Source of the DNA: Solimicrobium silvestre | Lineage (GTDB): Bacteria; Pseudomonadota; Gammaproteobacteria; Burkholderiales; Burkholderiaceae_D | Assembly (NCBI RefSeq): GCF_002976435.1 | Contig: NZ_PUGF01000028.1 | Coordinates: 1 to 62,184 of the forward strand | DNA length: 62,184 nt | Direction of reading: 5' to 3' | Shown here: one piece after another, positions 14,978-37,797 of the stretch | Position numbering within the stretch: the stretch's first letter is position 1 | Layout of the letters: the number at the start of each line of letters is the position of its first letter | Notes under the pieces: generated by a model | Databases searched by the model: none | Told to the model about the DNA's origin: nothing | The model's input: the letters and a program-made list of their open reading frames with translations, nothing else | Made by a program: the position numbers and the translations under genes

Positions 14978-16992
14978 GGCAGCACTGGATTTGGTGTGAC
15001 GATGTTAAAGGTCGGTGAAAAAGTATCCATCAGGCTGAGCAGCATTCCAAAGGCCTGCGGATTACCGTCGATCTTGATTAAGCCCGTGGCAATGGCTTGT
15101 TTAGGCGATAATTTCTGCAGCAAAATAGCGTCTAGCGTTGCTCTGCTTAATGTGAGCGTAGCGTCGGCGGTTGTCGATTGTTTTCCTACCAAATAAGTTA
15201 GCGCTGAATTTTCCAGATTGAGAACGTAGTGCAAGTCGTTTTTACCAGCAGCGTCGCCGTCACTGAAATTCCAGTTAATGACGATGTGTTTGCCTTCTGC
15301 TTTTGGCGCATTCAAGCGCACGCCCAGATAATCAAAAATATTGTCGATGCTGAGTGCTTTTACCGTGTCGGCGCTGTCAGTGCGGAGCTCACCTGCAACA
15401 GGTGTTTTTTTACCGTTGCGCAGTTCCATCGCACCATATAAATAGGCATTACGCTCAACCGCCGATTGGGCTTGGTAGCCTAATTGTTCCAATGCATCGG
15501 CACCCAGATTACGTGCTTCCTGATTGCTTGGATCCGCAAAAACTAAGTGACTCATCGCTTGTGCTACCCAGCGATATTCACCCTGAACATAATCGGCATG
15601 CGCTCGTTTTAAAATTGCTTCGGCACCGCCGCCATAGGCCACAAATTTACGTCCATAATCGGCATCACTCAGCGCATCCAGATTGGCCGGATTGCCGTCA
15701 TACCATCCGATATATTCTTGATATACCGCCTTGGCATTACGCTGCACGGAACCGTAATAACCCTGCGTTTCCCATTCATTGGCCAGACTTGCAGGCACAT
15801 TTTTACTCATGAATTCGGCGACTTCGACTGGTTTGTAGCCGAGATTAATTAATCGTAAGGACTGGTCATTAAGCCATTTATACATATCGCGTTGTTTAGA
15901 TAAGTAGTTGATTACGCGGGTATGACCAATCACAGGCCAAGTGTGCTGGCCGACTAACATCGTCGTGTCGTCGCCAAAACGGGCTAACGCCTGATTTAAA
16001 TAGTTTGACCAGGCTTGTGCATCACGAATCGATGCGCCGCGTAAGGTCAGTAATTGATGTTGGGTTTGGCAGGCTAATTCACCGGTATCGAGTACTTTAA
16101 ATTGTGGAAAAAAATGAATCATTTCAGCCGGTGCTTCGGTGCCCGGCGTCAGCATGTTAATAATTTCTACGCCATCAATCACCATTTTTTCAACGGCTTG
16201 AGTAACGTAACGGGTCGGTTCAATCAGGGTAATAGTTCCTTTGGAAAGCGCTTTAGCACCGCCAATATCAAGCTGCCCCCGATCACTGCGCGGCAGGCTG
16301 GTGCCGAACTGGTATTCAGCACGTCGGCTCATGGCGTTACCCGCCAAAACGTTTTCACTAATGGCGTGCTCCATAAATCCGGTTGGCGCAATAATTTGTA
16401 CTTTGCCGCTCTTCACATCTTCTTCACTGACCAGGCCTTTAACGCCGCCGTAATGGTCGACATGGCTGTGGTTGTAGAGGATGGCAACGATGGGTTTTTT
16501 AGGGCGGTGGCTATAGTACAAATTTAATGCGCTGCGAGCCGTCTCAGTACTGAGCATGGCATCGATGATGATAATGCCGGTTTTACCCTCAACAATCGTC
16601 ATATTGGTCAGGTCGATGCCGCGCACCTGATAAAAGCCGTCAGTGACTTTATATAAACCATTACCCATGCCTTTGCGGGCTTGAATCCATAGGCTTGGAT
16701 TAACTGTAGCGGGCGCTTTCTCCGCTTGAAGAAACTCATACCCTTTAAGTGTGTACACGACGTTGCCTTGCGCACCGATTGTTGCTGCGTCAGGAATGCT
16801 GCCGATAAAACCATGCGCAATATCTGCGTCGATTTGTGGATCTGCAGGCGGTAAATGGCGAGCTGTTTCGGCGTTTTTTGCGATGGTTGCCGGCTCTGCG
16901 TCTTTAGGCGCGTTTAGTAACTGCGCTTGCGCTGTGCTCATGATGAACAGCAGGGATGCCGTTATTGCGTTAATTTTCATGATTTTTTTCAT
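14974..16992 (-). CDS. Periplasmic alkylsulfatase, SdsA1/BDS1-type metallo-beta-lactamase fold
   Basis: Hydrolyses alkyl sulfate esters to alcohol and sulfate. The signal peptide is about 24 residues (MKKIMKINAITASLLF…AQA). The metallo-beta-lactamase zinc motif is NHSHVDHYGG, with further ligands expected near ELACQTQHQL and VGQHTWPV. An alpha-helical dimerisation region follows and the C-terminal ~120 residues look like the SCP2-type lipid-binding domain usual in this family. The 672-residue length matches SdsA1-type enzymes. AGAGG precedes the ATG at 16992. It is coupled to the GMC alcohol dehydrogenase and follows an acyl-CoA synthetase, so the three could convert an alkyl sulfate to acyl-CoA through alcohol and acid. 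Confidence 0.92.
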   Translation of the reverse strand: MKKIMKINAITASLLFIMSTAQAQLLNAPKDAEPATIAKNAETARHLPPADPQIDADIAHGFIGSIPDAATIGAQGNVVYTLKGYEFLQAEKAPATVNPSLWIQARKGMGNGLYKVTDGFYQVRGIDLTNMTIVEGKTGIIIIDAMLSTETARSALNLYYSHRPKKPIVAILYNHSHVDHYGGVKGLVSEEDVKSGKVQIIAPTGFMEHAISENVLAGNAMSRRAEYQFGTSLPRSDRGQLDIGGAKALSKGTITLIEPTRYVTQAVEKMVIDGVEIINMLTPGTEAPAEMIHFFPQFKVLDTGELACQTQHQLLTLRGASIRDAQAWSNYLNQALARFGDDTTMLVGQHTWPVIGHTRVINYLSKQRDMYKWLNDQSLRLINLGYKPVEVAEFMSKNVPASLANEWETQGYYGSVQRNAKAVYQEYIGWYDGNPANLDALSDADYGRKFVAYGGGAEAILKRAHADYVQGEYRWVAQAMSHLVFADPSNQEARNLGADALEQLGYQAQSAVERNAYLYGAMELRNGKKTPVAGELRTDSADTVKALSIDNIFDYLGVRLNAPKAEGKHIVINWNFSDGDAAGKNDLHYVLNLENSALTYLVGKQSTTADATLTLSRATLDAILLQKLSPKQAIATGLIKIDGNPQAFGMLLSLMDTFSPTFNIVTPNPVLP

Positions 16993-17085: not shown

Positions 17086-18669
17086 CTAGCTGATCTTCCT
17101 GTCCATGTGTTGCCAGTACTTTTCTTTCACCTTACGTCGCAATACTTTGCCGACTACCGACAGCGGCAGTTCTTCAACAAAAATTAATGTTTTAGGTGCC
17201 TTGTAAGCGCCTAGCCTATTTTTTGAATGTGCAATTAACTCTTCTGCCGCGACAGAAACACCTTGGCGCAACACCACTTCCGCGTGCAGCGATTCACCCC
17301 ATTCGGGATGGGGAATGCCGACTACGGCGGCCATTAAAACGGCAGGGTGAGCTTGCAAAGCTGCTTCAACTTCAATCGCATAAATGTTAAAACCGCCGCT
17401 GATAATCATGTCTTTGACGCGATCGACGATGTAGATATAGCCGTTGGCATCGATATAACCAAGGTCGCCGGATTTCCATGCGCCATCTTCAAATTCGGCA
17501 GCGGTAGCTTCTGGATTATCGTAATAGCCTTTGATGATCGCTTTGCAGCGTATTCGAATTTCTCCGGTTTCCCCGAACGGTAAGGGCTTGCCTTGCTTGT
17601 CCGTGATGAATATTTCTACCCCGGGTGTAGCGCGCCCGGCTGACGACAGGTGTTTAATTGCCGCGTCATCATTACTCCGATGCTCGGCTTTATCCAGTAT
17701 CGAGATGAACATGGCGGCTTCGGTGGCAGCATAGCCTTGCGCAAAAATCTGGCCGAAGCATTGCACCAATTCATCGAGCTTGACCGGACTGATTGGCGCA
17801 GCACCATAAATCAGCGTCTTCAAAGAAGAGAAGTCACGCGGCAGTGCACGTTGTAACTCCAGCAGGCGATACAACACGGTCGGCACCAGGAAGGAATGCG
17901 TCACCCGCTCTGTTTCAACCACTTCGCGCCAGTGATCCAGATTGAGTTGATTCATGGTGAGATTGGTACCACCGGCAAAGAAGGTCGGGAAAAACGTAAT
18001 CAACGTGCCGTGCGATAACGGTGTTACGTGTACTAGTCGGGTTGCATCGGTAAAGTTGAGATCAAAATTAATAAATCCGCCATCCCGGCTCGCCAGAATA
18101 TTGTCGATGGAATACATCGCACATTTACCTTTGCCGGTTGTACCACCGGTAAAACGCAGCATAAAAATGTGCTCGTCGGTATCCAGCTCAACATCGTTGT
18201 CTAGCTCGGAAGCAGCTTCAACCAAATCCCAGAATGCACGTACTTCAGGATATTTTTGTGGCTCTGGAATTTCATCCATCGCGACTACTGTGCAGCCCTT
18301 GCTGTGCAACAGTGCAGAGTAGGTTTCCAATAAGCGGGTTTCGATAAAAACCACCTTGGGCTGTACCAAGTCCAGCTGCCGTTCGTGCTCTTCAATCGAG
18401 TCACGCAAATTCGTCATGACGACCGTTCCTTCTTGTTTGAAGACTACCGGAAACAGCATCAAACTAAGATTGTCATTTTCTAAAATGAGCATGAATTTAT
18501 CGCCGCATCCCACTTGCAACTCAGTGCGCAAGGCATTGGCGATGCGGTTGGTCAGCCGGTGATATTCATCATAGTTGTAGCGCCGCTGTCGCTCGACGTT
18601 GACAATCGCTTCCTGCTCGCCAAAACGTAATGCCATGAGTCGCATAACACGACAAAAATTCATTTTCAT
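17086..18669 (-). CDS. Acyl-CoA synthetase (AMP-forming ligase)
   Basis: Activates a carboxylic acid to its CoA thioester using ATP. The adenylation P-loop is FTGGTTGKGKCAM near residue 175, the A5-type motif is QGYAATEAA, the A7/A8 motifs are WKSGDLGYIDANGYIYIVDRVKDMIISGG near 420 and the catalytic Lys is in the C-terminal VGKVLRRKVKE. The 527 residues are full length. AGGTGG lies 7 nt before the first ATG. It is upstream of the alkylsulfatase with a 93-bp gap and downstream of the SDR with a 343-bp gap that holds a repeat, so it may have its own promoter. The substrate is probably a branched or cyclic acid, judging by the racemase nearby. Confidence 0.9.
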   Translation of the reverse strand: MKMNFCRVMRLMALRFGEQEAIVNVERQRRYNYDEYHRLTNRIANALRTELQVGCGDKFMLILENDNLSLMLFPVVFKQEGTVVMTNLRDSIEEHERQLDLVQPKVVFIETRLLETYSALLHSKGCTVVAMDEIPEPQKYPEVRAFWDLVEAASELDNDVELDTDEHIFMLRFTGGTTGKGKCAMYSIDNILASRDGGFINFDLNFTDATRLVHVTPLSHGTLITFFPTFFAGGTNLTMNQLNLDHWREVVETERVTHSFLVPTVLYRLLELQRALPRDFSSLKTLIYGAAPISPVKLDELVQCFGQIFAQGYAATEAAMFISILDKAEHRSNDDAAIKHLSSAGRATPGVEIFITDKQGKPLPFGETGEIRIRCKAIIKGYYDNPEATAAEFEDGAWKSGDLGYIDANGYIYIVDRVKDMIISGGFNIYAIEVEAALQAHPAVLMAAVVGIPHPEWGESLHAEVVLRQGVSVAAEELIAHSKNRLGAYKAPKTLIFVEELPLSVVGKVLRRKVKEKYWQHMDRKIS

Positions 18670-19012: not shown

Positions 19013-19789
19013 TCAACGCGACCGCAAACGCGCCGCGCCATCCAGACGAATCGTCTCGGCGTTGACGTAAGCGTTTTCAATAATGAAGGCGCAGCAATGT
19101 GAAAATTCACGCATATCGCCTAAGCGTGGTGGCGCTTCGACCTGTTCTTTCAGGGAATTCAGAATTTTTTCATCCAGTGCGGCAGCCATCGGCGTTAAAA
19201 ACAAGCCCGGTGCAATCGCATTAACGCGCACGCCGATAGAACCCAGTTCACGCGCGGCAGGCATGTTCATGCCGATGATGGCGGCTTTGGATGAGGCATA
19301 AGCACATTGCCCGACTTGCCCTTCATAGGCAGCACCGGAAGAGACGTTGATAACGACGCCGCGTTCTTCGCCGGCTTCGGGCTCATTTTTCGCCATTTGC
19401 TCCACGCATTTGGACATGACGTTGAACACGCCATTAATGTTGATGGCCGTGGTTTGTGCAAACTTGGCCAGCGGCGCGGCTTTACCTTCGCGGTTGAGTA
19501 CTTTAAAGCCAGCTGGCGTGGCGGCACCGTTGATACAAACGTGAATGGCACTAAATTTGGTCATTACCGCATCAACTGCCTGCTGTACAGAGGCTTCATC
19601 GCTGACATCGGTTTGTACAAAGAGTGCGCGATCGGCGCCGATTTCTTCCACTACTTTATTGCCAGCTTCCTGGTTGAGGTCAAAAATAGCGATTTTTGCG
19701 CCTTTTTCTTCGGCCAGATAATGTGCCGTTGCCAGCCCCAAGCCAGACGCGCCGCCAGTGATAACAATAACTTTGTCTAATATACGCAT
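19013..19789 (-). CDS. SDR-family 3-hydroxyacyl-CoA dehydrogenase (type II, HSD10-like)
   Basis: NAD-dependent short-chain dehydrogenase of 258 residues. The cofactor motif is TGGASGLG near residue 11, the catalytic triad is Ser in VINVSSGAAYEGQVGQ and Tyr-Lys in YASSK, and the end DGAARLRSR is typical of the type II 3-hydroxyacyl-CoA dehydrogenase group, which also takes methyl-branched and steroid substrates. It likely catalyses the third beta-oxidation step here, because the adjacent genes encode the dehydrogenase, hydratase and thiolase steps. Only 27 bp separate it from the acyl-CoA dehydrogenase upstream, so it belongs to the same operon. Confidence 0.9.
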   Translation of the reverse strand: MRILDKVIVITGGASGLGLATAHYLAEEKGAKIAIFDLNQEAGNKVVEEIGADRALFVQTDVSDEASVQQAVDAVMTKFSAIHVCINGAATPAGFKVLNREGKAAPLAKFAQTTAININGVFNVMSKCVEQMAKNEPEAGEERGVVINVSSGAAYEGQVGQCAYASSKAAIIGMNMPAARELGSIGVRVNAIAPGLFLTPMAAALDEKILNSLKEQVEAPPRLGDMREFSHCCAFIIENAYVNAETIRLDGAARLRSR

Positions 19790-19816: not shown

Positions 19817-20974
19817 TTAGAATGCATTAATACCAGTGAGAGCACGTCCAATAATCAACTGCTGAATTTGCGTGGTGCCTTCTGGAATCGGTGCAACGAT
19901 GGCTTCACGCGCCAATTTTTCCACCAGAAAATCCGTAGTTAAACCGTTGGCACCATGAATCTGCACTGCCTGTCGGGCTATTTTTACGGCCGCTTCGCAG
20001 GCAAAATATTTCGCCATCGCCGCTTCCATTTCGGCCGGTACGCCAGCTTCTATCATCGAAGCGGCGCGGTAGGTGAGCAAGCGCGCTGCGTCAACATTGG
20101 TCGCCATTTCAGCCAGCATGGCTGAAATTAATTGGTGGCCCGCGATAGGTTTGCCGTGTTGTTGGCGATCTTTTGAATAACGGATTGCTTCCTCCAGCGC
20201 ACGTCGGGCGATACCCAAACCTTGTCCTGCGACATATACGCGGGAGCGCTCAAAAAAGGACAGAGTGTTTTTAAGCGCCGCGCCTTCGTTGCCGATCATA
20301 TTGCTGGCAGGTACTCGAACGTCGTGTAAAAAGACTTGTGCCGTTGATTGGCTGTTCCAGGCGATTTTGTGGATATTGCGGGTTTCGTAGGGATGTTCTT
20401 TGCGGTCGAGTAAGAAGTGGGTCAGTCCGCGGCGTGGATCTTCCCCTGTGCGGCAAGTGCAAATTAAAAAATCGGAATAGACGCCGTTACTGATCCAGGT
20501 TTTTTCACCGTTAATGATGTAATCATCTCCATCGCGGCGCGCCCGGGTTTTGATTTCAAGCACATTCGAGCCCACATCCGGTTCAGAAATTCCCATGCTG
20601 ACGAAGGACGTGCCGTTGAGTAGTCCGGGTAAATAACGTTCGCGCAAATGTGCCGGTGCCAGCTTTTCTATCATTTGTGCGCCGAATGAATTGATCAATA
20701 CAGGCACGGATAAATCGGCAGAAGTAGCGGCGACTTCTTCAAATAGCATCGTCATCGTGAGCCAGTCTATGCCCATGCCGCCATTGGCTTCACTGACTGT
20801 GCCAGCCACCAAACCGAATTCGGTCAGCTTCTGCATGATCGCAGCCATCTTTTCTTTCGGTACGAACTGATCGCGATATTCCTTGCTAAAAACCTGGTCA
20901 ACTTCGGCGTCCAGATAACGTCGCAAACCATCAATAGCGCCTTGCTGTTCTTCCGTTCTGATTACATGTCCCAT
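19817..20974 (-). CDS. Acyl-CoA dehydrogenase
   Basis: FAD enzyme introducing the alpha-beta double bond in acyl-CoA and passing electrons to ETF. Signatures seen are SMGISEPDVGSNV near residue 125 (FAD/substrate loop), GEKTWISNG near 155, the RVPASNMIG loop and the C-terminal catalytic base Glu365 in PIPEGTTQIQQ. The 385-residue length is standard. AAGGAG lies 6 nt before the ATG at 20974. It sits 17 bp after the thiolase in a minus-strand beta-oxidation operon, which argues for a dedicated rather than housekeeping role. Chain-length specificity cannot be read from the sequence. Confidence 0.92.
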   Translation of the reverse strand: MGHVIRTEEQQGAIDGLRRYLDAEVDQVFSKEYRDQFVPKEKMAAIMQKLTEFGLVAGTVSEANGGMGIDWLTMTMLFEEVAATSADLSVPVLINSFGAQMIEKLAPAHLRERYLPGLLNGTSFVSMGISEPDVGSNVLEIKTRARRDGDDYIINGEKTWISNGVYSDFLICTCRTGEDPRRGLTHFLLDRKEHPYETRNIHKIAWNSQSTAQVFLHDVRVPASNMIGNEGAALKNTLSFFERSRVYVAGQGLGIARRALEEAIRYSKDRQQHGKPIAGHQLISAMLAEMATNVDAARLLTYRAASMIEAGVPAEMEAAMAKYFACEAAVKIARQAVQIHGANGLTTDFLVEKLAREAIVAPIPEGTTQIQQLIIGRALTGINAF

Positions 20975-20991: not shown

Positions 20992-22233
20992 TTATTGTTT
21001 TGCCAGAATATTGACCACGACGACCGCTTCTTCGATGCCGAACAAGCCGCCGCCATTTTCTTGAATTGCGATGCGCGCATTGCTGACCTGACGTTGTTCA
21101 GCCTCGCCACGCAATTGCGTGACCAGTTCGTGAATCTGCCCTAAACCAGTAGCCGCGATTGGATGGCCTTTTGATTCCAGACCGCCAGACGGGTTAATTG
21201 GAATCCGTCCGCCAACAGTAAAATCGCCACGCTCCGCCGCAGGCCCGCCTTCACCAAATGGCACCAGCATTAATGATTCTGCGTTGAGGATTTCGCCGAT
21301 AGCCGAAGCGTCGTGCACTTCCGCGACACTTACGTCGCTCGGCGCGACACCCGCTTGCTCATAGGCTTTTTTAGCCGCCAGATGCGCAACGATTTTGTAA
21401 GGCTCATCCAGACTTCGGTTTGAGCCGGTTTGCACAATCGAAGCAAGAACCCGGATGGCACGATCTTTGGCGTCTTGTAGTTTTTTGAGGCCATCGGCAT
21501 TGCACAACACGACGGCGGCAGCGCCATCGCTGATCGGTGAGCACATTAACGTAGTCAGCGGATAGCAAATCGGCGGGGAAGCCAGTACCTGTTCAATACT
21601 GAATGCTTCACGAAATTGCGATAAGGGATTGTGTACGGAATGCCGGTGATTTTTAGCCGCGACAGCAGCGATCTGACGTTGCGTAGTGCCATAGCGCTGC
21701 ATGTGATTACGACAAATTGCAGCATACACGTCCATAAATACGCTGTAAGGGCGTTCTGAAACAGTGCCCGGCGGAGGGATAATTCCATCACCCATTGCCA
21801 ACAGCGTGGTTTTATTTTCTTCCACCGTACTGACATCCCAACCGCCATCGAAGGCGGAAAACATTTTGGCTTTATCGGGGATATTCATTTTTTCTGCACC
21901 TACCGCCAAGGCAATGTCGCAACTGCCAGCGCGTAGTGCCAAGGTCGCCAGATTGAAGGCGGAAGAGCCTGACGCGCAGGCATTTTCAACGGTAAATACC
22001 GGAATTCCCTCTATGCCGAGGCGGCGCATAGCGATCGGGCCGGGAATGGCAGTTTGCCCTTGAAACAGGCCGTTAGTCATCGTTGCATAGTAGGCCGATC
22101 CGACATCGGCAGCGGCGCAACCAGCGTCGGCTAATGCTAACCTGACGGCAACGTTGACCATGTCGTAGACGGTACGGTCAAGTAAGCGGCCAAACTGCGT
22201 CATGCCTACACCGACGATATAAATTTCATTCAT
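20992..22233 (-). CDS. Thiolase, SCP2/SCPx-thiolase-like
   Basis: Performs the thiolytic cleavage step, releasing acetyl- or propionyl-CoA. The nucleophile Cys86 is in TVENACASGSSAF; the active-site His candidates are in VAEVHDASAIGE and SKGHPIAATG. The overall layout (MNEIYIVGVGMTQFG start, EVHDA and GHPIAATGLGQ motifs) is that of the sterol-carrier-type thiolases that act on methyl-branched and sterol side-chain substrates, rather than FadA or PhaA. At 413 residues it is full length. AAAGGAA precedes the ATG. It is downstream of the enoyl-CoA hydratase by 36 bp in one operon. Confidence 0.9.
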   Translation of the reverse strand: MNEIYIVGVGMTQFGRLLDRTVYDMVNVAVRLALADAGCAAADVGSAYYATMTNGLFQGQTAIPGPIAMRRLGIEGIPVFTVENACASGSSAFNLATLALRAGSCDIALAVGAEKMNIPDKAKMFSAFDGGWDVSTVEENKTTLLAMGDGIIPPPGTVSERPYSVFMDVYAAICRNHMQRYGTTQRQIAAVAAKNHRHSVHNPLSQFREAFSIEQVLASPPICYPLTTLMCSPISDGAAAVVLCNADGLKKLQDAKDRAIRVLASIVQTGSNRSLDEPYKIVAHLAAKKAYEQAGVAPSDVSVAEVHDASAIGEILNAESLMLVPFGEGGPAAERGDFTVGGRIPINPSGGLESKGHPIAATGLGQIHELVTQLRGEAEQRQVSNARIAIQENGGGLFGIEEAVVVVNILAKQ

Positions 22234-22269: not shown

Positions 22270-23055
22270 TTAGCGGCCCTGAAAATTCGGTGCGCGTTTT
22301 TCCATAAAGGATTGCAAGCCTTCTTGAAAATCGAATGAGCGCATGTGCTGGCGCAGCATTACTTGTTCGTGCAGCAGGGCATCTTCACGGCTTTTATCTG
22401 CGGAAGCGCGTGCTACCTGTTTCATTCTGAATAGCGCGATAGGGCTCTTTTTGGCGATGTGGGCGGCTAGTTTCAACGTTGCATCAGCCAACTCGTCATC
22501 TGCGTGGACTTCACAAACCAGACCGCAATTGTGCATCTCTGTGGCGGTCAGTGATTTGCCCGTCAGTAGTAAATACATCGCCATGTTTAAAGGGATTAAG
22601 CGCGACAGAACTGCCGCACCGCCAGCACCGGGATACACACCGAAATTGGCGTGCGCATCCGCAATGGTTGCGCTGCTGGCGGCAACGATTACATCGGCGC
22701 ACATTGCCAACTCCAAACCGCCTGCCATCGTAACGCCGTTTAACGCGGCGATGACCGGTTTTGGGAAGTTGCGCAGCAAGCCAAAGACCTGATTGGCGCG
22801 ATCTAAAAAGTCCGCTTCACCGGGTTTGTTTTGCTTGCCTTGCAATACTTCCTTGAGATCTGCTCCGGCGCAGAAGGCGGTGCCAGCACCGGTCAGAATA
22901 ACTGCCCGTAACTCGTCATTGGCAGCGATATTTATTAAATTGCGCTCAAGCTCAGCCAAGATGGCGAAATTAAGTGAGTTCATGGCGCGAGGCCGGTTCA
23001 GCGTAATGCGCGCAACCGAACCGATGGTTTCAACTATCAGCACTTCTTCAGTCAT
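22270..23055 (-). CDS. Enoyl-CoA hydratase/isomerase family protein
   Basis: Crotonase-fold protein. The oxyanion-hole segments are AFCAGADLKE near residue 62 and GVTMAGGLELA near 110. The first catalytic Glu equivalent (rat Glu144) is present as Glu116 in GGLELA, counted from the first ATG. The position matching rat Glu164 appears to be His136 (IADAHANFG), so chemistry may differ from standard hydration. The second of two ATGs (23055) is preferred because AGGAG then lies 5 nt away. It is the first gene of the operon hydratase-thiolase-acyl-CoA dehydrogenase-SDR and has the AraC-type operator and promoter described at 23107-23177. Confidence 0.88.
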   Translation of the reverse strand: MTEEVLIVETIGSVARITLNRPRAMNSLNFAILAELERNLINIAANDELRAVILTGAGTAFCAGADLKEVLQGKQNKPGEADFLDRANQVFGLLRNFPKPVIAALNGVTMAGGLELAMCADVIVAASSATIADAHANFGVYPGAGGAAVLSRLIPLNMAMYLLLTGKSLTATEMHNCGLVCEVHADDELADATLKLAAHIAKKSPIALFRMKQVARASADKSREDALLHEQVMLRQHMRSFDFQEGLQSFMEKRAPNFQGR

Positions 23056-23106
23056 CATGTCTCCTGTTATTTGTGAGTCAGGCCTGTGATGCAGACCTTA
23101 AGCTAA

Positions 23107-23177
23107 TGAGGTGATGATAGGAACGTTGCGGGGTAGGTGCAGGTCATTGCGATTAAAAGAGTGGTCTTGCGGATCGC
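23107..23177 (-). promoter_or_regulatory. AraC-type operator and promoter of the beta-oxidation operon
   Basis: Two half-sites, GGTCATTGCGAT (starting 23142) and GGTCTTGCGGAT (starting 23163), lie exactly 21 bp apart in direct orientation. On the minus strand, 21 nt beyond the inner half-site is a TATCAT -10 box (23114-23119), which places the inner half-site over the -35 region, the usual layout for AraC-family activation. The predicted start is near 23107, about 50 nt before the hydratase start. The same arrangement occurs in front of the sulfatase gene. Confidence 0.7.
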
Positions 23178-23338
23178 TTTGATGGGATTTCAGGGAAGGG
23201 GGAGTGCGGAAGATATGCTGGAGATAAATGTATTGGTGTCGGGGTACCTTGATTGCTAGGAACTGAGTATACGAGCTAGTTTGAGAAGGGTACCCACAAG
23301 GGATACCCCTACAAAACTAAGCTTAGATTTGAATTTGC

Positions 23339-24472
23339 TCAAACCTCCGGAATCAATCGCTTAATTTCCCCCTCAGACAACCCAATAGAACGCAAAATTT
23401 CCACGCTGTGTTCGCCGCATTTTGGCACTGCACCAATAGCGCTAGCCGGCGTTGCTGAAAAACGCGGTGCCGGTGCTGCCTGCAATACGCCATTGTGTTC
23501 AGCATAAATACCGCGTGCCTGACTATGTGGATGCGCCATCGCTTCCCTGGGGTTAAGCACCGGAGCAAAACAGGCATCGCTTCCTTCCAGTAACTCAACC
23601 CAGTGCTGGCGTGGTTGCTGCATAAATAAAGCAGTCAACCGTTCGCGTAGCCGACCCCACAAACGTGGATCGTAGGGGGATTTGAAATCAGCATCTTCAC
23701 CCAGACCTAGCTTGTTAAATAACAGCGCGTTAAATTGCGGTTCCAACGCTCCAATACTAATGCAATGCCCATCTGCACAAACATAACTGCCGTACCAATG
23801 CGGGCCGTCCAGCAGGCCGCGTCCACGCTCGAACGGTTGTTGTCCTGCTGCATGCGCAGACAGCAGTAAATTCATCAAATTGGCACTGCCGTCGACAATC
23901 GCGGCATCCACTATTTGGCCAGTGCCGCTGCGCTTGGCATTTAATATGCCGGCTAAAATTCCCATAGCAAGATATAGCGCGCCGCCACCCAAATCACCCA
24001 CCAACGTCGGTGGTGCCATCGGTGCAGATCCGGGTGTGCCAGAGAACCATAAGGCGCCGGAGAGGGCGATGTAGTTAATGTCGTGTCCTGCCGCTTGCGC
24101 CAGTGGCCCAGATTGCCCCCAGCCTGTCATCCGACCGTAGACCAGACGTGGATTTGCATTAAGGCAGATTTCCGGCCCCAATCCTAAACGCTCCATTACT
24201 CCCGGGCGCATGCCTTCGATCAGTGCATCAGCGTCGCTGATGAGTTGCAGTACTGCGGCGATGGAAGCGGGGTCTTTCAGGTCTAATGCCAGAGATTTTT
24301 TGCCACGATTGACGATGGCGTTTTTACCCAGCGCCAACGGATCGTTTTTATTACTGCTGGGGCGTTCGATCAGAATAACTTCGGCACCCATGTCGGCTAA
24401 TAACATGCCGCAAAATGGCCCCGGCCCTATTCCGGCAATTTCGATAATACGGATTCCGTCTAAAACACCCAT
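23339..24472 (-). CDS. Alpha-methylacyl-CoA racemase (CaiB/BaiF family III)
   Basis: Interconverts the 2R and 2S epimers of 2-methyl-branched acyl-CoAs so that S-specific acyl-CoA dehydrogenases can act. The mycobacterial racemase (MCR) residues His126, Asp156 and Glu241 correspond here to His130 (AGHDINYIALSG), Asp160 (LVGDLGGGALYLAMG) and Glu244 (GALEPQF). This combination favours racemase over CoA-transferase. The 377-residue length is typical. AAGGAAT precedes the ATG. It follows the DUF1145-like gene by 44 bp, so it is probably transcribed with the sulfatase, FGE and DUF1145 genes. Its presence is the best clue that the substrate has a methyl branch, as in isoprenoid or sterol side chains. 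Confidence 0.88.
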   Translation of the reverse strand: MGVLDGIRIIEIAGIGPGPFCGMLLADMGAEVILIERPSSNKNDPLALGKNAIVNRGKKSLALDLKDPASIAAVLQLISDADALIEGMRPGVMERLGLGPEICLNANPRLVYGRMTGWGQSGPLAQAAGHDINYIALSGALWFSGTPGSAPMAPPTLVGDLGGGALYLAMGILAGILNAKRSGTGQIVDAAIVDGSANLMNLLLSAHAAGQQPFERGRGLLDGPHWYGSYVCADGHCISIGALEPQFNALLFNKLGLGEDADFKSPYDPRLWGRLRERLTALFMQQPRQHWVELLEGSDACFAPVLNPREAMAHPHSQARGIYAEHNGVLQAAPAPRFSATPASAIGAVPKCGEHSVEILRSIGLSEGEIKRLIPEV

Positions 24473-24516
24473 GCTATTCCTTGAAAAAGTTTGTTCATTA
24501 TTTGTGGTTCACAGCA

Positions 24517-24786
24517 TCAAATTTTTACATCGCGTTTGCTCGCATCCAGCAGCGGTTTCCAGTGAAATAGGCCAAATATCAGCGTGAGTAAAATACTGGT
24601 GGAAAGTGGCCCTTTATAAAGGCGCAGATGCGGCATAAAAATCATCACTTCGATTACATGGGCAACCAGAAATAGTACCGTAATGCTTTGGCATGCGAGG
24701 GCTAAACCATGCGGTAAATCGACTACTAAACTTAGTGCAGCGCCGAGGTAGATAACTATGCAGGCGATTTTTAATAAAAAATACAT
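24517..24786 (-). CDS. Small DUF1145-like inner-membrane protein
   Basis: An 89-residue protein with three hydrophobic helices, starting MYFLLKIACIVIYLGAAL and containing HVIEVMIFMPHLRLY, which resembles the DUF1145 family. Function unknown. The ATG at 24786 is preferred because GGAGACC lies just upstream; a longer reading adds an Asn-rich, non-membrane extension. It lies 69 bp after the FGE and 44 bp before the racemase, within the same minus-strand transcription unit. Confidence 0.6.
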   Translation of the reverse strand: MYFLLKIACIVIYLGAALSLVVDLPHGLALACQSITVLFLVAHVIEVMIFMPHLRLYKGPLSTSILLTLIFGLFHWKPLLDASKRDVKI

Positions 24787-24854
24787 GTGGTCTCCGTTGA
24801 TGTTGTTGTGATTTTTTTGTGAATTATTAGCATTCGTATTGTCATTCATTCCGC

Positions 24855-25964
24855 TTATTGCGTTGCAATTTTTATGCTTTCCTGTTGGTTTTCTGCGGAC
24901 AAAACCAGACGAAACCCAATGTGCGACATCGGGTTGGCAGGGTCAGCTCCGCGCCGTGCGCTGGGACGATAACTTTGGCAATAACTCTCGTCGCATAAAA
25001 AAGAACCGCCACGGATAACCCGTTTTGGGGCATTCGCGGGCGCATTACTATCTTCAGGATCAAAACTTTCTGCGGGGCCGGGTGGGTTTTGTACTACTCC
25101 GAACTCATTTTTCAACCCCTTTAATTGCTGGAAGCGGTCGGCGCGATAATAATCAGCCGTCCATTGCCAGACATTGCCCGTCATGTCATACAGCCCGTAG
25201 CCATTGGCCGGATAACTTTTAACTGCTTGCGTGCCGATTTGTGTTGTGGTGTGCGCTTCAGTTGCAACGTCAATGACAGGGAATTTACCTTGGTTGGGGA
25301 AAATATTCGTCATGGTTTTTCCTGCAGGTTTGAGCTCATTACCCCAAGCGTAGTCCGCTTGTTCTATGCCGCCTCTTGCCGCGTATTCCCATTCCACTTC
25401 GGTCGCTAATCGTTTGCCTACCCACTTGGCATAAGCTTGCGCGTCTAGCCAGGAGACTTGTACTACCGGGTAATTATTTTTTCCTGTTAAGTCACTGGCA
25501 GGCCCATTTGGGTGTTTCCAATTTGCTCCCGCTACATAAGTCCACCAGGCCGACCAGTCATTCAGTAGAATTGGCTTGGATGTACCGGTGAATACCATCG
25601 CACCTGCCACCAATACCGCATCATCTGGTTTTGGCGTGCCAGCAGGCAGTTGCACCCGCAATGACTCCCAATCTGGCTTGCGTTCCGCCGTTGTGATGTA
25701 ACCCGTGGCGCGCACAAAGGCGGAAAATTGCGCATTCGTCACGTCACAACTATCCATCCAAAATCCAGACACGCGAGCTTTAAATACTGGTTGCTCGTTG
25801 GCTTTGGCGAGTTTGCTGGCGCTGCCCATTAAAAAGTCGCCAGCAGGAATCCAGACCATGCCGGTAGGCGGCGGTTTTCTTCCGTGCGAGAGCGAAGTGA
25901 CTATGATCATGCTGCTTATTGCCAGCAATCCCAGTAAAATTTTTAGCAGTAAAGAGTTTTTCAT
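24855..25964 (-). CDS. Membrane-anchored formylglycine-generating enzyme (SUMF1/FGE)
   Basis: Converts the active-site Cys of a sulfatase to C-alpha-formylglycine. The FGE fold covers about residues 33-355, with GMVWIPAGDFLMGS, EVEWEYAARGG, GLYDMTGNVWQWTADYY and RVIRGGSFLC. Both catalytic Cys are present as Cys324 and Cys329 (GGSFLCDESYC), matching the human FGE Cys336/Cys341 pair, so it should be active and copper-binding. An N-terminal hydrophobic segment (about residues 5-24) suggests export and anchoring in the inner membrane with the enzyme in the periplasm, whereas most bacterial FGEs studied are cytoplasmic. It lies 13 bp after the Cys-type sulfatase, its obvious client. Confidence 0.88.
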   Translation of the reverse strand: MKNSLLLKILLGLLAISSMIIVTSLSHGRKPPPTGMVWIPAGDFLMGSASKLAKANEQPVFKARVSGFWMDSCDVTNAQFSAFVRATGYITTAERKPDWESLRVQLPAGTPKPDDAVLVAGAMVFTGTSKPILLNDWSAWWTYVAGANWKHPNGPASDLTGKNNYPVVQVSWLDAQAYAKWVGKRLATEVEWEYAARGGIEQADYAWGNELKPAGKTMTNIFPNQGKFPVIDVATEAHTTTQIGTQAVKSYPANGYGLYDMTGNVWQWTADYYRADRFQQLKGLKNEFGVVQNPPGPAESFDPEDSNAPANAPKRVIRGGSFLCDESYCQSYRPSARRGADPANPMSHIGFRLVLSAENQQESIKIATQ

Positions 25965-25977
25965 GGATGAAGGCAGC

Positions 25978-27798
25978 TCAGGATTTTTTCGGTATCGTGG
26001 TATTCCGCTTGCGACGCCGGATCAAAAATAGTCCGGAAATTAACACAAACAGGCCGAATAAAATCTTAGGTAATGACGCTTTTAATTTGGGGATTAATAC
26101 ATGATGCACAGCGTATAACTGCCCCTGCGTGATGTAGTTATAACCGGCTGGCATCGGCAACACATGATTCGCCCGTGCGTAATTATCGTAATCGTTCTTC
26201 ATGCTTTGAAATAATTGCGGCATACCTTGTTGCAGGTCATGCACTTCGCCGGGATCATTAGCAATATTGTAGAGATGCCACTGGCTATCGCCGACCGGCC
26301 CGAGGTTTTTTAAGAGTTTATAGTCGCCCTTAAATAAGGCAGCATTGCCAGACAATTCATAGCCTATCGCCTGATCCGCAGAATGAACCCGCATGGACTT
26401 TCCCTGCAACAGCGGTAGCATGCTGTTGCCGACCATGGGCTCGACAGTTTTACCTTGGTAATGGTCATCGTGCGGCTTAATCCCAGCTATATCCAACAAG
26501 GTCGGCACGATGTCGGTAACGTGGGCAAAGGTAGAGGAAATCTGATCCTTTTTCATATTGGGTACGCCACTGATGATGAGCGGCGTGCGTAACCCGCCTT
26601 CGCCAGCAAAAAATTTATAGGTACTTAACGGAGATGCGGCGGCGCTTGCCCAACTTGGGCCTATCGCATCATATGCGCCTTTGTCGCCGAGTCGGTCAAA
26701 GTCATTGGTGTAGTTCATGTACAGCCATAATTTGACTGACAAAATCTTATATGGATCGGTTGGTTCGGCACCGTTGTCGGACAGAAAAACGAACACGGTA
26801 TTATCAAATTCTCCAGTCTGTTTCAGGTGCTCCACAAAGCGCCCAACATGGTAATCCATGGCTTCAGCCATCGCTGCATAGACTTCCATCCGACGTGCAT
26901 CATATTTTTTTTGCTCAGGACTTAGTGTATCCCAATTGGCGGTGCTGGCCATGGTCACCATCTCGGTATCTTTTGGTATCAGGCCCATTTCCGCAGCACG
27001 ATTGCGGCGTGCCGTGCGTAATGCGGTCCACCCGTCTTTATAAACACCTTGGTATTTATCAATAAACGAACGCGGTGCTTGTACCGGAATGTGGTTGGCC
27101 TGAAAACCTAAATAGGCAAAGAACGGTTTTCCGTTTTTTTTATCCGTAGCAATGTAATCAATCGCCTTGTCGACGATGAATTTAGACGAATAATAATCTT
27201 CCGGCAACGTAGCGGGTTTGCCCTGTTCAAACCAATACGCTTTGTCATACAAAAATATGTAAGGTCGGTTTTCCCAATTGTCGGAACCGCTATCGGCTTG
27301 AATAAACGAGCGCTCAAAACCACGTTGCGGCGGTAGTTCGCCCGGTTCTTTGCCCAGATGCCATTTGCCGGTGATATAGGTGTGATAGCCGTTGTCCTTA
27401 AGCATGGTCGCCAAAGTAACTGCGTCATCATTTAATGTGCCCTTATAACCGGGTTTGCCCTGATGTTCGAATGGCATGGTTTCCGGCATATTGCCCATGC
27501 CATTACGGTGATTATCAACCCCCGTTAATAACATGGCACGCGTGGGTGAGCAGGACGCGGCGACATGGAAATTAGAAAACTTAAGCCCTTGTTTTGCCAA
27601 GTTATCTATATTTGGCGTGGCTATTTCACTACCGAAAGCACCGACATCGCTAAAACCCCAGTCGTCAGCCACCAATATGACGATATTCGGCTGTGCTTTT
27701 GTACCAGTTGCATGGCTGAAAGAGAACATTCCTACACTGAAGATGAGTAGCGTAATGCGACAAACGACGGATATTTTGTTTTTCACGCGCTGTTCCAT
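25978..27798 (-). CDS. Secreted Cys-type sulfatase with C-terminal membrane anchor
   Basis: Type I sulfatase hydrolysing a sulfate ester. A signal peptide covers about residues 1-31. The metal site begins ILVADDWGFSD, and the activation signature is Cys83-S-P-T-Arg87 (AASCSPTRAMLLTG), i.e. the Cys form that needs formylglycine conversion. GKWHLG and FLSDNGAE supply further metal and sulfate ligands. A C-terminal hydrophobic helix (about 574-594) followed by RRRKR predicts anchoring to the membrane with the body in the periplasm. Homologues are called arylsulfatases, but the local beta-oxidation genes suggest an aliphatic or steroid sulfate. It is the first gene of the unit and carries the AraC-type promoter at 27815-27885. 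No strong ribosome binding site was seen. Confidence 0.92.
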   Translation of the reverse strand: MEQRVKNKISVVCRITLLIFSVGMFSFSHATGTKAQPNIVILVADDWGFSDVGAFGSEIATPNIDNLAKQGLKFSNFHVAASCSPTRAMLLTGVDNHRNGMGNMPETMPFEHQGKPGYKGTLNDDAVTLATMLKDNGYHTYITGKWHLGKEPGELPPQRGFERSFIQADSGSDNWENRPYIFLYDKAYWFEQGKPATLPEDYYSSKFIVDKAIDYIATDKKNGKPFFAYLGFQANHIPVQAPRSFIDKYQGVYKDGWTALRTARRNRAAEMGLIPKDTEMVTMASTANWDTLSPEQKKYDARRMEVYAAMAEAMDYHVGRFVEHLKQTGEFDNTVFVFLSDNGAEPTDPYKILSVKLWLYMNYTNDFDRLGDKGAYDAIGPSWASAAASPLSTYKFFAGEGGLRTPLIISGVPNMKKDQISSTFAHVTDIVPTLLDIAGIKPHDDHYQGKTVEPMVGNSMLPLLQGKSMRVHSADQAIGYELSGNAALFKGDYKLLKNLGPVGDSQWHLYNIANDPGEVHDLQQGMPQLFQSMKNDYDNYARANHVLPMPAGYNYITQGQLYAVHHVLIPKLKASLPKILFGLFVLISGLFLIRRRKRNTTIPKKS

Positions 27799-27814
27799 TT
27801 ATAGCGATTAATCA

Positions 27815-27885
27815 CAGGTTGATAATAGAAAGATCGGAACACACTCACAGGTCTTTGTAGCTAAAACACTGGTCTTGCGGATTAT
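27815..27885 (-). promoter_or_regulatory. AraC-type operator and promoter of the sulfatase operon
   Basis: Half-sites GGTCTTTGTAGC (starting 27850) and GGTCTTGCGGAT (starting 27871) are 21 bp apart. On the minus strand a TATTAT -10 box (27822-27827) follows the inner half-site after exactly 21 nt. The spacing and most bases match the element at 23107-23177. The predicted start lies about 17 nt before the sulfatase ATG. The site is between the sulfatase and the divergent AraC-type gene and could also autoregulate the latter. Confidence 0.72.
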
Positions 27886-27947
27886 ATTTATTGACCTGAG
27901 GCAATGGTGGTGGAAGAATAGCTTGGTCTATTTAATTCAAGAACCCC

Positions 27948-28991
27948 ATGGCAATCGCAAAACCGGAGGCACAATTACCAGCCAGTGAGACGACCACTAT
28001 TGGTAGCTATTGTCTGGTGATTGCTAAGGCGCTCGAATCTTGTGGTGTAGATAGCGCACGGGTATTTCGTGCGGTAGGCATTCCAATTGAATTGTCGACC
28101 GACCCGCTAAGTCGCTTGCCGACCGAAACACTCACCAAGCTGTATCGGGCTTGTGTGGAGGTGACGAATAACCCGTATTTCGGTTTAATTGTCGCAAAAT
28201 TAATTCAAGCTAATAATCTTCATGCGCTGGGCTATGCCTTGGCATCGAGTTCCACATTAATGGATTTTTGTCAGCGCTTGGAACGTTACTTCCGGCTTGT
28301 TTCGCAAGCGGCCAGGGTGAGCATTAGTACGGTTGATGACAAGGTGTTTCTGCGTTGTGAGTTGTTGACGGAGGTTTGTGGTGAAACCGAAGACGCTTTT
28401 TTTGGGTTTTTGGTCTTAACGATGCGCTCGCTGTATAAGCCCACATTTAACCCGATACGAGTGGAACTGTGTCATGCAATGCCGTTGGAAGGCGCGGGTC
28501 CTTACGAAGCATTATGTTGCTCACCAGTCACTTTTTCAAACAAGGTCGGGCTGTTAGTTTTTAATAAAGCAGACCTTGAGCAGCAGTTGGATGGCTCGTG
28601 TCCGGAGCTGGCGCAAATGAATGACCACATCGCCACTCAATATCTGGCACGCATTGATAAAGGTGACGTTGTCACGCGTGTTATACAAAAAATTATTGAA
28701 TTTTTACCATCCGGGGAATGCAGCCGTGAAAAAGTGGCCGATGCGCTGTGCATGAGCCCGGCCACGATGCAGCGTAAATTATCGCTGCGCGACGCTAAAT
28801 TTCAACAACTGCTGGACGACACACGCAAGGAACTTGCTTGCAGTTATGTACAACAACCTTCGCGCTCCATGACCGAAATCACGTTCTTGCTGGGATTCAC
28901 CGATTCCAGTAATTTTACGCGTGCCTTCAAACGATGGACCGGTACTTCCCCGACGCACTTTAAATCGTCAATGTCAGTAGAAGAAATCTAA
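27948..28991 (+). CDS. AraC-family transcriptional regulator (OruR/PF12625 type)
   Basis: A 347-residue activator. The N-terminal ~200 residues match the ligand-sensing domain of the OruR/Arabinose_bd type (CLVIAKALESCGVDSARVFRAVGI; PYFGLIVAKLIQANNLHALGYALASS). The C-terminal two-HTH DNA-binding domain spans about 240-335, with EKVADALCMSPATMQRKLS and the AraC signature ITFLLGFTDSSNFTRAFKRWTGTSPTHFK. It is divergent from the sulfatase gene, sharing a 149-bp intergenic region that contains a double GGTC half-site. The same site precedes the beta-oxidation operon, so this is the prime candidate regulator of the sulfatase and beta-oxidation genes. The inducer is unknown, perhaps a desulfated lipid or its CoA ester. 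Confidence 0.9.
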   Translation: MAIAKPEAQLPASETTTIGSYCLVIAKALESCGVDSARVFRAVGIPIELSTDPLSRLPTETLTKLYRACVEVTNNPYFGLIVAKLIQANNLHALGYALASSSTLMDFCQRLERYFRLVSQAARVSISTVDDKVFLRCELLTEVCGETEDAFFGFLVLTMRSLYKPTFNPIRVELCHAMPLEGAGPYEALCCSPVTFSNKVGLLVFNKADLEQQLDGSCPELAQMNDHIATQYLARIDKGDVVTRVIQKIIEFLPSGECSREKVADALCMSPATMQRKLSLRDAKFQQLLDDTRKELACSYVQQPSRSMTEITFLLGFTDSSNFTRAFKRWTGTSPTHFKSSMSVEEI

Positions 28992-32966: not shown

Positions 32967-33079
32967 AACCACGTCCACTTATCCCACCGTCAGAGCCTTA
33001 TTGTTTTTAACACGCCAGCTGTTAAAACCTGTTTAAAAAATAATTCACATGTGTAGTTTTCGGTTGGATGACCAGCGAT

Positions 33080-33164
33080 TGTCTGGAAATGACAAGCGCA
33101 AAGTCGTACACCTGCCGACAATCAGTGTCAGGAAATCGCATAAGAATTTCCAATGTCAGGCACG
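33080..33164. promoter_or_regulatory. Repeated TGTCWGGAAAT motifs upstream of the DUF1302 operon
   Basis: TGTCTGGAAAT (33080-33090) and TGTCAGGAAAT (33126-33136) are followed by a third, partial copy TGTCAGG (33154-33160). They sit 45-125 bp before the DUF1302 ATG, in the right place for regulator binding. They do not match the GGTC-TTG operator of the sulfatase regulon. No convincing -35/-10 pair was picked out. Confidence 0.4.
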
Positions 33165-33204: not shown

Positions 33205-35124
33205 ATGATTGATTTAGGAAAATCAGGCAAGCAACGCCAGTTGTTGCGCTTAAAGCCACGGGTGATGGCGCAGGCATGTAGCGTTGCGTTGATGGCGCTC
33301 AGTGTTGGCGGTATTAGCTATTCATCGACGGCGTTTGCCGATGCATTTACTCTTGATAATGGCGATCAGGGGCAATGGACGGCCGATATGTCGTTAGGGA
33401 ATACCTGGCGCACCATGAACGCTAACCCAGCTCTATATAGCAAGCCTTACGGCGGTACGGCCGGTGACGGCAATCAGGATGGCAATCTTAACTATGGCAA
33501 GGGTGATTCGGTTTCGACGCCATTTACCATTAGCGGTGAGCTTCAATTAAAACACGATACCTTTGGCGTCGTGTTGGGTCTCAAAGCATGGTACGACTAC
33601 ACTCTTGAACACAAAACCGTGCCGATTGGTTCTGCTGCAAACGGTTTCATTGCCAACTCTAAATTAAACGATAGTAATTACGCGCCCCTCTCTAAATTTT
33701 CCGGTGTGGCGGTCAATAACGCCTATCTGTTCAATACTTTCTCTACCTTCGATGACAAGCCACTAACGATCAAATTGGGCGACCAGGTTGTCAATTGGGG
33801 GGAGAGTTTATTCATTCCCGGGATGAATCAGTTCGGCGCTTTTAATCTGGGTGCGACGCACGAACCCGGCGCGACGGTGAAAGATATTTTAATTCCGATT
33901 CCACAAGTCAGTGCCAACTGGGGTTTGGGTGGCGGTTTGAGTGTGGAAGCGTTCTATCAGTTTGTGTGGATTCCGAATGTGGCACCCGGTTGCGGCACAT
34001 TCTTTTCCCCAAGTGATGTGTACAACTGCGGCAATGCTACGACACCTTTATTGGGCGATGCAATCGGTAATCAATATACCCAGCTGACCGGTTCACCACT
34101 GTTACATGGCATTAATTTTGGTGTTTCGTCGTTGCCAGAAAAAGATCCGAAAAGCAGTGGGCAAGCTGGTATCTCATCGCATTATTTTGCATCCAGTATC
34201 AGCACTGATTTCGGTGTGTATTTTGCGCGCTATAACCAACGCACGCCGGACTTGAGTATCTCCAATACGCCTAGCAATAACCCGCTGTCTATTTACTCCG
34301 GGAATTACACGGGTAAGTTAGGCGCTAAGGCTGGTGTCGCTAATTTCTTGTCGCCCTTGACGGCGTATTGGGATTACTCAGCAACCGATATTCAGGTAGC
34401 TGGACTTTCAGCGGCAACTGAAGTGGGTGGTTGGTCATTGGCAGGTGAAGTCAGCTACACCAAAGGCTTGCCCGTGCAAATTAACCCGGCCGATCTGGTA
34501 GTTGGTGAGCAATTGGGTAAATTATTTGGGCCGTTGGCTGGGCCGCTTTACAAAATGGGAAGCTCTCCATCCAATAGTGAAATTCAAGGCTATGACTTGC
34601 ACAATAAGTCGCAGTTGCAAATGAATACCACCAAAGTCTTGTCGCAAGTGATTGGTGCAGAATCGCTGACGTTAGTGGGTGAGGTCGGTATGCAGCACTG
34701 GAGCGGTATTGGCGACCCGAATGATCCTGCATCGATCCGTTATGGTCGTGCCTTTTTGTATGGTTTCGCCACCAACAATGCCGCGGTGTGCGCGAAGTTG
34801 AATCCGAATCCAGCCTACTGTGCCGCCAACGGGTTTGATACGAGTTCGGCGTGGGGCTATCGCATGCAGGCCGAGTTGAGTTACCCGAATGCGCTTGCGG
34901 GTTGGAACCTGAAACCTCGCGTGTTTTGGTCGCAAGACGTACGCGGTACTTCCGGAGATGGTATTTTTTTACAAGACCGGGAAACGCTGGGTTTAGTTTT
35001 ACGTGCTGATTACCTGAATAAATACTATGCGCAGATCGCCTACACCACCTATAACCATCATGCGATCTATGACCCGATGAATGACCGCGACAACATATCC
35101 GCTGTTATTGGCATTCATTTTTAA
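33205..35124 (+). CDS. DUF1302 family outer-membrane channel-like protein
   Basis: A 639-residue exported protein. After a long basic N-region the signal sequence ends near GGISYSSTAFADA. The remainder is rich in aromatic, alternating strands typical of a large outer-membrane beta-barrel; family landmarks are NWGESLFIPGMNQFG and QVSANWGLGGGLSVEAFYQF. DUF1302 proteins co-occur with DUF1329, a Ycf48-like protein and an RND/MMPL transporter in bacteria that use steroids, terpenes or fatty compounds, and are thought to take part in their passage through the envelope. AGGGGAC precedes the ATG. It is the first gene of a four-gene operon. Confidence 0.88.
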   Translation: MIDLGKSGKQRQLLRLKPRVMAQACSVALMALSVGGISYSSTAFADAFTLDNGDQGQWTADMSLGNTWRTMNANPALYSKPYGGTAGDGNQDGNLNYGKGDSVSTPFTISGELQLKHDTFGVVLGLKAWYDYTLEHKTVPIGSAANGFIANSKLNDSNYAPLSKFSGVAVNNAYLFNTFSTFDDKPLTIKLGDQVVNWGESLFIPGMNQFGAFNLGATHEPGATVKDILIPIPQVSANWGLGGGLSVEAFYQFVWIPNVAPGCGTFFSPSDVYNCGNATTPLLGDAIGNQYTQLTGSPLLHGINFGVSSLPEKDPKSSGQAGISSHYFASSISTDFGVYFARYNQRTPDLSISNTPSNNPLSIYSGNYTGKLGAKAGVANFLSPLTAYWDYSATDIQVAGLSAATEVGGWSLAGEVSYTKGLPVQINPADLVVGEQLGKLFGPLAGPLYKMGSSPSNSEIQGYDLHNKSQLQMNTTKVLSQVIGAESLTLVGEVGMQHWSGIGDPNDPASIRYGRAFLYGFATNNAAVCAKLNPNPAYCAANGFDTSSAWGYRMQAELSYPNALAGWNLKPRVFWSQDVRGTSGDGIFLQDRETLGLVLRADYLNKYYAQIAYTTYNHHAIYDPMNDRDNISAVIGIHF

Positions 35125-35143
35125 TTAATCAGGAGACGACATA

Positions 35144-36508: not shown

Positions 36509-36528
36509 AAAAACGTGTTTGATGATTA

Positions 36529-36580
36529 AGTGCCCTTCGTGTTTGAAGGGCACTGGCACATGCGAGCACTGCATAGTGCT
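36529..36580 (+). promoter_or_regulatory. Two tandem hairpins inside the DUF1302 operon
   Basis: A perfect 10-bp stem (AGTGCCCTTC, 36529-36538, with GAAGGGCACT, 36545-36554) is followed by AGCACT-GCAT-AGTGCT (36565-36580). They fill the 90-bp gap between the DUF1329 stop and the Ycf48-like start. Neither is followed by a U-run, so an RNA-stability or partial-attenuation element that lowers expression of the two downstream genes fits better than a full terminator. Confidence 0.55.
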
Positions 36581-36598
36581 TGCAAATAAGGATGGCAA

Positions 36599-37795: not shown

Positions 37796-37797
37796 TC

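Follow-up and report, generated by a model that had tools for sequence, protein, structure and literature searches.

The stretch of DNA analysed here, hereafter the window, is 62,184 nucleotides of the Solimicrobium silvestre genome (contig NZ_PUGF01000028.1). It holds a gene for an AraC-family regulator (27948..28991, plus strand) and two similar operator-promoter modules, each before a predicted operon on the minus strand. P_ech (23140..23174, minus) precedes a beta-oxidation operon, and P_sulf (27848..27882, minus) precedes a sulfatase operon and sits in the divergent gap between that operon and the araC gene. Read against the minus-strand genes, both operators consist of two GGTC half-sites in direct orientation with a period of exactly 21 bp (23142 and 23163 in P_ech; 27850 and 27871 in P_sulf), at the positions given in the original prediction. 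That prediction also set a TATYAT box 21 nt past the GGTC edge. The box is present at both, as TATCAT (23114..23119, minus) and TATTAT (27822..27827, minus), but the distance is 22 nt, or 21 only if the preceding A is counted. The regulator is likely the protein that binds these operators; this assignment rests on the position of its gene and on co-occurrence with the sites in other genomes. Its helix-turn-helix region scored over the cut-offs of PF12833 (HTH_18; 60.0 bits) and PF00165 (34.2), which places it in the AraC/XylS family, and its N-terminal part belongs to the Arabinose_bd group (PF12625; 112.2 bits, cut-off 27.6). The score for QhpR (NCBIfam NF049968) was 189.2 bits, below the curated cut-off of 250.

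The two 35-nt copies, 23140-23174 and 27848-27882, show 80% agreement. A composite pattern with up to three mismatches was found at only two places in the 5.24-Mb genome, P_ech and P_sulf, with none in the reversed control and none in 100 dinucleotide shuffles of the window. Since composite patterns were derived from P_ech and P_sulf themselves, the fair test was a matrix built without the window. Named genomes were scanned with the AraC protein and the best 80 loci were kept. Among these, 25 (L007-L030 and L056) carried an orthologue of the regulator (48-67% identity), and 55 (29-38%) were used as controls. Stretches of the form GGTC-N17-GGTC were intergenic in many of the 25 loci. Forty were taken as seeds, two in coding sequence (L014:5497 and L027:5507) were dropped, and the matrix was made from the other 38. 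It found 51 sites of at least 20 bits in 18 of the 25 orthologue loci (503 kb), compared to none in the 55 control loci (958 kb; best, 10.3 bits), and no site of at least 15 bits in five shuffles. This conservation goes beyond what the original prediction described, and its absence in relatives was one of the outcomes that the prediction had said would count against it.

Of all positions in the window, the matrix ranked 27850 first (19.6 bits) and 23142 second (16.8 bits), followed by a site at 33094 on the minus strand (10.9 bits). With 500 column-permuted matrices, one best hit reached 16.8, no second hit reached 16.8 and no third hit reached 10.9. None of 100 Markov-simulated windows had a best hit of at least 16.8. 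Chance similarity of the two stretches was therefore ruled out, as the prediction had supposed. When cross-validated at a threshold of 15 bits, the matrix built on non-Pseudomonas loci recovered 23 of 29 Pseudomonas sites and the Pseudomonas matrix recovered 22 of 22 sites from other taxa, with no control site in either case. The top three window sites scored 25.3, 15.8 and 4.1 by the non-Pseudomonas matrix and 16.4, 15.6 and 14.9 by the Pseudomonas matrix.

Promoter geometry was also conserved. Every one of the relatives' 51 strong sites had its best TATAAT-like hexamer at a distance of 22 nt (34 sites) or 23 nt (17) from the proximal half-site, compared to about 12 of 51 in shuffles, and the hexamer had at least four of six matches in 46. 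The distance is 22 nt in all three window sites. The best TTGACA match at spacers of 15-19 was 2/6 in 26 sites, 3/6 in 22 and 4/6 in 3, little above the shuffle counts (27.8, 14.7 and 2.7, respectively). At a spacer of about 17, a -35 element would overlap the proximal half-site. In class II AraC activation, the proximal half-site lies over the -35 region at a fixed distance from the -10. Escherichia coli AraC at araI1-araI2 is an example, with direct half-sites 21 bp apart and the proximal one over the -35. The window operators have the same layout, with a pair of direct half-sites spaced by about 21 bp, the proximal one over the -35 region and a fixed distance to the -10, but their half-site sequence and ligand differ from those of araI1-araI2. 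When operator and -10 were scored together, P_sulf, P_ech and the third site reached 25.1, 21.9 and 18.3, the next position in the window reached -2.1 and the best control locus reached 8.3.

The third operator (33070..33096) is weaker and is new with respect to the original prediction. Its promoter reads on the plus strand, its half-sites, TGTC and GGTC, lie on the minus strand and a -10-like box, GACAAT (33117..33122, plus), stands 22 nt from the half-site. Behind it is a predicted DUF1302-DUF1329-YCF48-like-MMPL/RND transporter operon of the AmeABCD type (33205..40236, plus). The site was third in the window by the matrix and by a wider one (2.0 bits), and second by a profile of the relatives' sites. 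It stands out only with its -10 counted. An IS200-like transposase frame (Y1_Tnp; 32391-32918) lies between a peptidase gene and the transporter operon.

The genes behind the operators fit a common route. The sulfatase operon encodes a type I sulfatase (25978..27798, minus; PF00884), which has a CSPTR motif and whose nearest solved structure is the arylsulfatase 1hdh, and an FGE-sulfatase-domain protein (24855..25964, minus; PF03781), the probable sulfatase-maturing enzyme. The end of the sulfatase (25978-26100) has a hydrophobic stretch followed by basic residues and is likely a membrane anchor. Behind P_ech come genes for an enoyl-CoA hydratase (22270..23058), an SCP-x-like thiolase of the lipid-transfer type (20992..22233), an acyl-CoA dehydrogenase (19817..20974) and a short-chain dehydrogenase (SDR; 19013..19789), all on the minus strand. 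Between the two operons is a CoA-transferase family III protein of the alpha-methylacyl-CoA racemase type (23339..24472, minus). Its best solved relatives are racemases (1x74, E 1e-92, compared to 1e-41 for the first transferase). It keeps GHDINYI and GD-x-GGG stretches, whose His and Asp are presumably the catalytic residues, and it is closer to racemases than to family III transferases. Further along the minus strand are an AMP-binding acyl-CoA ligase (17086..18669), an alkylsulfatase of the metallo-beta-lactamase type (14974..16992; Alkyl_sulf_dimr and Alkyl_sulf_C) and a GMC oxidoreductase (13319..14977), which would convert alcohol to aldehyde. The three operons with operators look able to desulfate an organic molecule, transport greasy compounds across the envelope and degrade branched fatty acids. 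In other soil bacteria, the relatives' strong sites accompany genes of these same types: before the enoyl-CoA hydratase operon in ten loci, before a GMC oxidoreductase adjoining the AraC gene in seven, before the alkylsulfatase in five and before a type I sulfatase in three. In thirteen loci a strong site lies upstream of the transporter operon's DUF1329 gene, at a distance of about 2.0-2.1 kb; the gene between is a frame of about 600 aa in one of the thirteen (L009), and likewise in L017 and L027.

A fourth site, also absent from the original prediction, was found on another contig, C3. A profile (R1) of 42 of the 52 relatives' sites of at least 15 bits was run on the whole genome, where it scored 150 of 1204 candidates, and other members may be missed. 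It gave at least 8 places, which were the three window sites, C3:75754-75795 and matches on C1, C4, C5 and C20. The C3 site (operator score, 10.9; 16.1 with the -10) precedes an aldehyde dehydrogenase gene (PF00171). This enzyme is 72-75% identical to the aldehyde dehydrogenases in six of the relatives' clusters (L014, L018, L019 in part, L023, L025 and L056) and 33-44% identical to those in other clusters. It would act after the GMC oxidase and before the ligase, a step with no recognised gene in the window, and it probably belongs to the regulon. Between the operator and this gene is a 60-codon frame (L096:9853-10035; about 75.85 kb on C3), which is similar at its start to the start of the hydratase and further on to the C-terminus of GMC oxidoreductases. 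It looks as if a deletion put the aldehyde dehydrogenase behind a copy of P_ech. A further search of the genome gave at least 35 places (reversed control, 13), of which 30 were re-scored and 33070 was scored in the window; gene context was viewed for C3 and C13. The matches other than the four sites, including those on C1, C4, C5 and C20, were taken as background.

The motif goes with the regulator. The original prediction named occurrence at many unrelated genes as grounds for giving it up, and this was not seen: in the 20 genomes searched, which stand for 20 of the 25 loci, the exact core matches, 29 in number, all fell inside AraC loci (15 of the 20 genomes), though 38 one-mismatch matches were partly scattered outside them (reversed control, 15 in all). 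An orthologue at E 1e-80 was present in 8 of 298 Pseudomonas genomes. The motif occurred in all eight, twice or more in seven, compared to 30 of the 290 genomes without the orthologue, three of which had two matches (Fisher, 3.5e-8 for motif presence; a second Fisher figure for genomes with and without the orthologue was 2.5e-11). Among the 33 matches without the orthologue, 15 were one recurring word, CAGGTCWATCTGCTGAAAACCGTGGTC, or near variants of it, found in 15 Pseudomonas genomes and perhaps coding. Four of the eight genomes (G540, G622, G671 and G755) lie outside the 25 loci and have two sites each within about 2.3 kb of the AraC gene. Three loci with GCTC/ATTC half-sites (L015, L016 and L021) have the second recognition helix SNFARAF instead of SNFTRAF. 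That altered half-sites go with an altered helix is suggestive only, since these loci are one clade. Burkholderia paludis (L021) has two AraC paralogues (L021:1863 and L021:9804), one by GGTC/GGTC and one by GCTC/ATTC; its second AraC gene, with SNFTRAF, sits beside the GGTC/GGTC site.

From these results, we consider it likely that the AraC protein activates at least three promoters in the window, and probably that of the distal aldehyde dehydrogenase, in a route from desulfation to beta-oxidation. The protein would bind a pair of direct half-sites that read GACC on the promoter strand and are separated by two helical turns. The one proximal to the promoter would replace the -35 element, 22 nt before the -10, and RNA polymerase would be recruited when a pathway compound is present. 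The targets would be the sulfatase/FGE operon, the beta-oxidation operon, the DUF1302-MMPL transporter operon and probably the aldehyde dehydrogenase gene. In the proposed route, the sulfatase would cut a sulfate ester, the GMC enzyme would oxidise the alcohol and the aldehyde dehydrogenase the aldehyde, and the ligase would activate the resulting acid to an acyl-CoA for beta-oxidation of a branched chain, with the racemase and the SCP-x-type thiolase. The shared module joining the sulfatase and beta-oxidation operons, which the original prediction proposed, is therefore supported, but the regulon is probably wider, with the transporter operon and the distal gene; the co-induction also proposed would follow from such activation and is read from sequence.

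This gives a predicted operator, open to testing, for an AraC-type regulator for which no description was found in the literature searched. It also ties the sulfatase, the DUF1302/DUF1329/RND transporter and the branched-chain beta-oxidation set into one pathway, and the operator serves to find further pathway genes, as it led here to the aldehyde dehydrogenase. The racemase and the SCP-x-type thiolase suggest that the substrate chain is 2-methyl-branched. The mammalian branched-chain pathway offers a parallel to the gene set, which comprises a sulfatase, enzymes for alcohol and aldehyde oxidation, a ligase, a methylacyl-CoA racemase, a dehydrogenase, a hydratase and an SCP-x thiolase. A more speculative possibility, to which we give only limited credence, is that the genes form a regulon dedicated to sulfated primary alcohols with methyl branches and spread by horizontal transfer, under a lipid-sensing AraC protein, with a sulfated isoprenoid or a C27 bile-alcohol-like side chain as natural substrate and not straight-chain detergents such as SDS. 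With this link between the genes, growth and reporter assays can be used to ask what the substrate is.

Several results weigh against activation of one shared regulon. The seeds hold GGTC twice by construction, so the strength of the matrix within the 25 loci is partly built in, and the fair tests are the window, the cross-validation and the genomes outside these loci. Seven of the 25 orthologue loci had no site of at least 20 bits. Inspection by eye of the gap upstream of their AraC gene showed variants at the same spacing: GATC/GATC in L024 (combined score, 24.3), TGTC/GGTC in L030 (12.8) and L028 (6.8), GCTC/ATTC in L021 (0.4), L015 (0.5) and L016 (-0.6) and a doubtful one in L029 (-8.8). 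Thus, the variants are low-scoring in four loci (L015, L016, L021 and L029). Neither the racemase-type gene (gap, 382 bp) nor the ligase gene (gap, 343 bp) has a site immediately before it; the two genes may be read from upstream promoters or from their own. The third site reached only 4.1 by the non-Pseudomonas matrix, and a best hit of at least 10.9 turned up in 5 of 100 simulated windows; this site is weak alone and needs its -10 and its position to convince. By operator alone, the third and fourth sites (10.9 each) rank below matches on C13 (16.7) and C20 (14.8). With the -10 counted, C3 is near C13 (15.5) and C4 (14.2), and C20 falls to 9.1. The C13 match lies inside a frame that by eye looks like a peroxiredoxin. 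The argument for the C3 site depends on the gene that follows it. The C3 promoter can also be aligned with P_ech over about 160 bp, which points to retention after duplication and not to an independent case. The proposal of activation rests on P_ech, P_sulf and the relatives, so the weak third and fourth sites leave its likelihood unchanged. Finally, the regulator of the nearest analogue by gene content, SlfR, is a repressor according to the accessible part of the report on it (PMC10779009).

This analogue is the slf system of the Psychrobacter plasmid pP62BP1, and it leads to the strongest alternative, in which the AraC protein represses the same sites and a pathway aldehyde relieves the repression. 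The part of the original slf report available describes an AraC/XylS-family regulator with an Arabinose_bd domain, SlfR, divergent from genes for an aldehyde dehydrogenase, a GMC oxidoreductase, an alkylsulfatase and an acyl-CoA ligase, which take alkyl sulfate to acyl-CoA (PMC3346939). SlfR and the window regulator both have genes for an alkylsulfatase, a GMC oxidoreductase, an aldehyde dehydrogenase or a ligase close by. All four enzyme types are present in this genome, but the alkylsulfatase, GMC and ligase genes of the window have no operator immediately before them and the aldehyde dehydrogenase gene is on C3. In E. coli, SlfR represses PslfC and lauryl aldehyde induces it (PMC10779009). 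The two systems differ, however, in several ways. As described there, slf is one compact four-gene operon without beta-oxidation genes, a racemase, a type I sulfatase or a transporter. PslfC is reported as a strong promoter by itself (PMC10779009), whereas promoters of the window type lack a good -35 and place a half-site at the position from which an activator would contact polymerase. The repeat given for SlfR in the accessible text, TTGA-N6-AGGACA, also differs from the GGTC half-sites: with one mismatch allowed it matched the window once (58674; 3.1 expected) and nowhere near the operators. We therefore regard repression as unlikely, and activation by the AraC protein as the better reading.

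Much less probable is that a different regulator binds the sites and that the AraC gene is merely a neighbour. The AraC protein was itself the query that gave the 25 loci and is bound to be present in them. However, the motif follows the AraC gene across the 298 Pseudomonas genomes, and in the four genomes outside the 25 loci the sites lie close to it. Direct half-sites about 21 bp apart are also the usual form for the AraC family. The nearest studied system by operator form was SphR of Pseudomonas aeruginosa; a plasmid protein annotated as SphR is 28% identical to the window regulator over 94% of the query. The accessible text describes a regulon of few promoters for sphingosine with a lipid ligand, each promoter with a -10, a poor -35 and a pair of direct half-sites whose period is similar (PMC3900636). 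The SphR half-site consensus reported there, TGNCCSNNRNNSNCC, differs from the window operators; with at most one mismatch it matched the window 64 times (70 expected) and at none of the operators. That the sites are functionless relics of promoter duplication is scarcely credible: P_ech and the C3 promoter are paralogous, and a weak gapped alignment extends past the operators of P_ech and P_sulf, which makes a common origin of those two possible, but the half-sites and -10 are well kept and the same elements stand before homologous genes in several genera.

For the transporter operon, the nearest described relative was AmeABCD of Castellaniella defragrans, with the same order of DUF1302, DUF1329, YCF48-like (COG4447) and HAE3-type RND genes. 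Deletion of AmeABCD lowers monoterpene tolerance, and the part of the paper available describes this tolerance role and no sulfatase or AraC operator (PMC6394551). A survey of aromatic regulons, likewise seen in part, places a DUF1302-type operon under other regulators (PMC6449761). No paper on this regulon was recognised in a literature search by titles and abstract openings with few subscription journals.

The hydratase (E 1e-85) was found in 0 of the 88 nearest relatives and the AraC protein (E 1e-80) in none of 398 further genomes sampled from the order, so no comparison of conservation is possible there. In 146 other relatives, the two-site pattern gave three genomes with one match each, all with three mismatches (reversed control, 2), and no relative was found in the viral contigs searched. 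Two Pseudomonas genomes carry a second, equally close AraC orthologue on another contig (G480:C40:282425-283414, 69%; G478:C6:658088-659077, 65%). Just past the P_sulf operator, 28 nt before the araC start, lies TTGACC-17-AAGAAT with TG ahead of the second hexamer (27891-27919, plus), in a region where promoter-like matches are not in excess overall. It is a possible araC promoter and, since it adjoins the P_sulf operator, the regulator may control itself.

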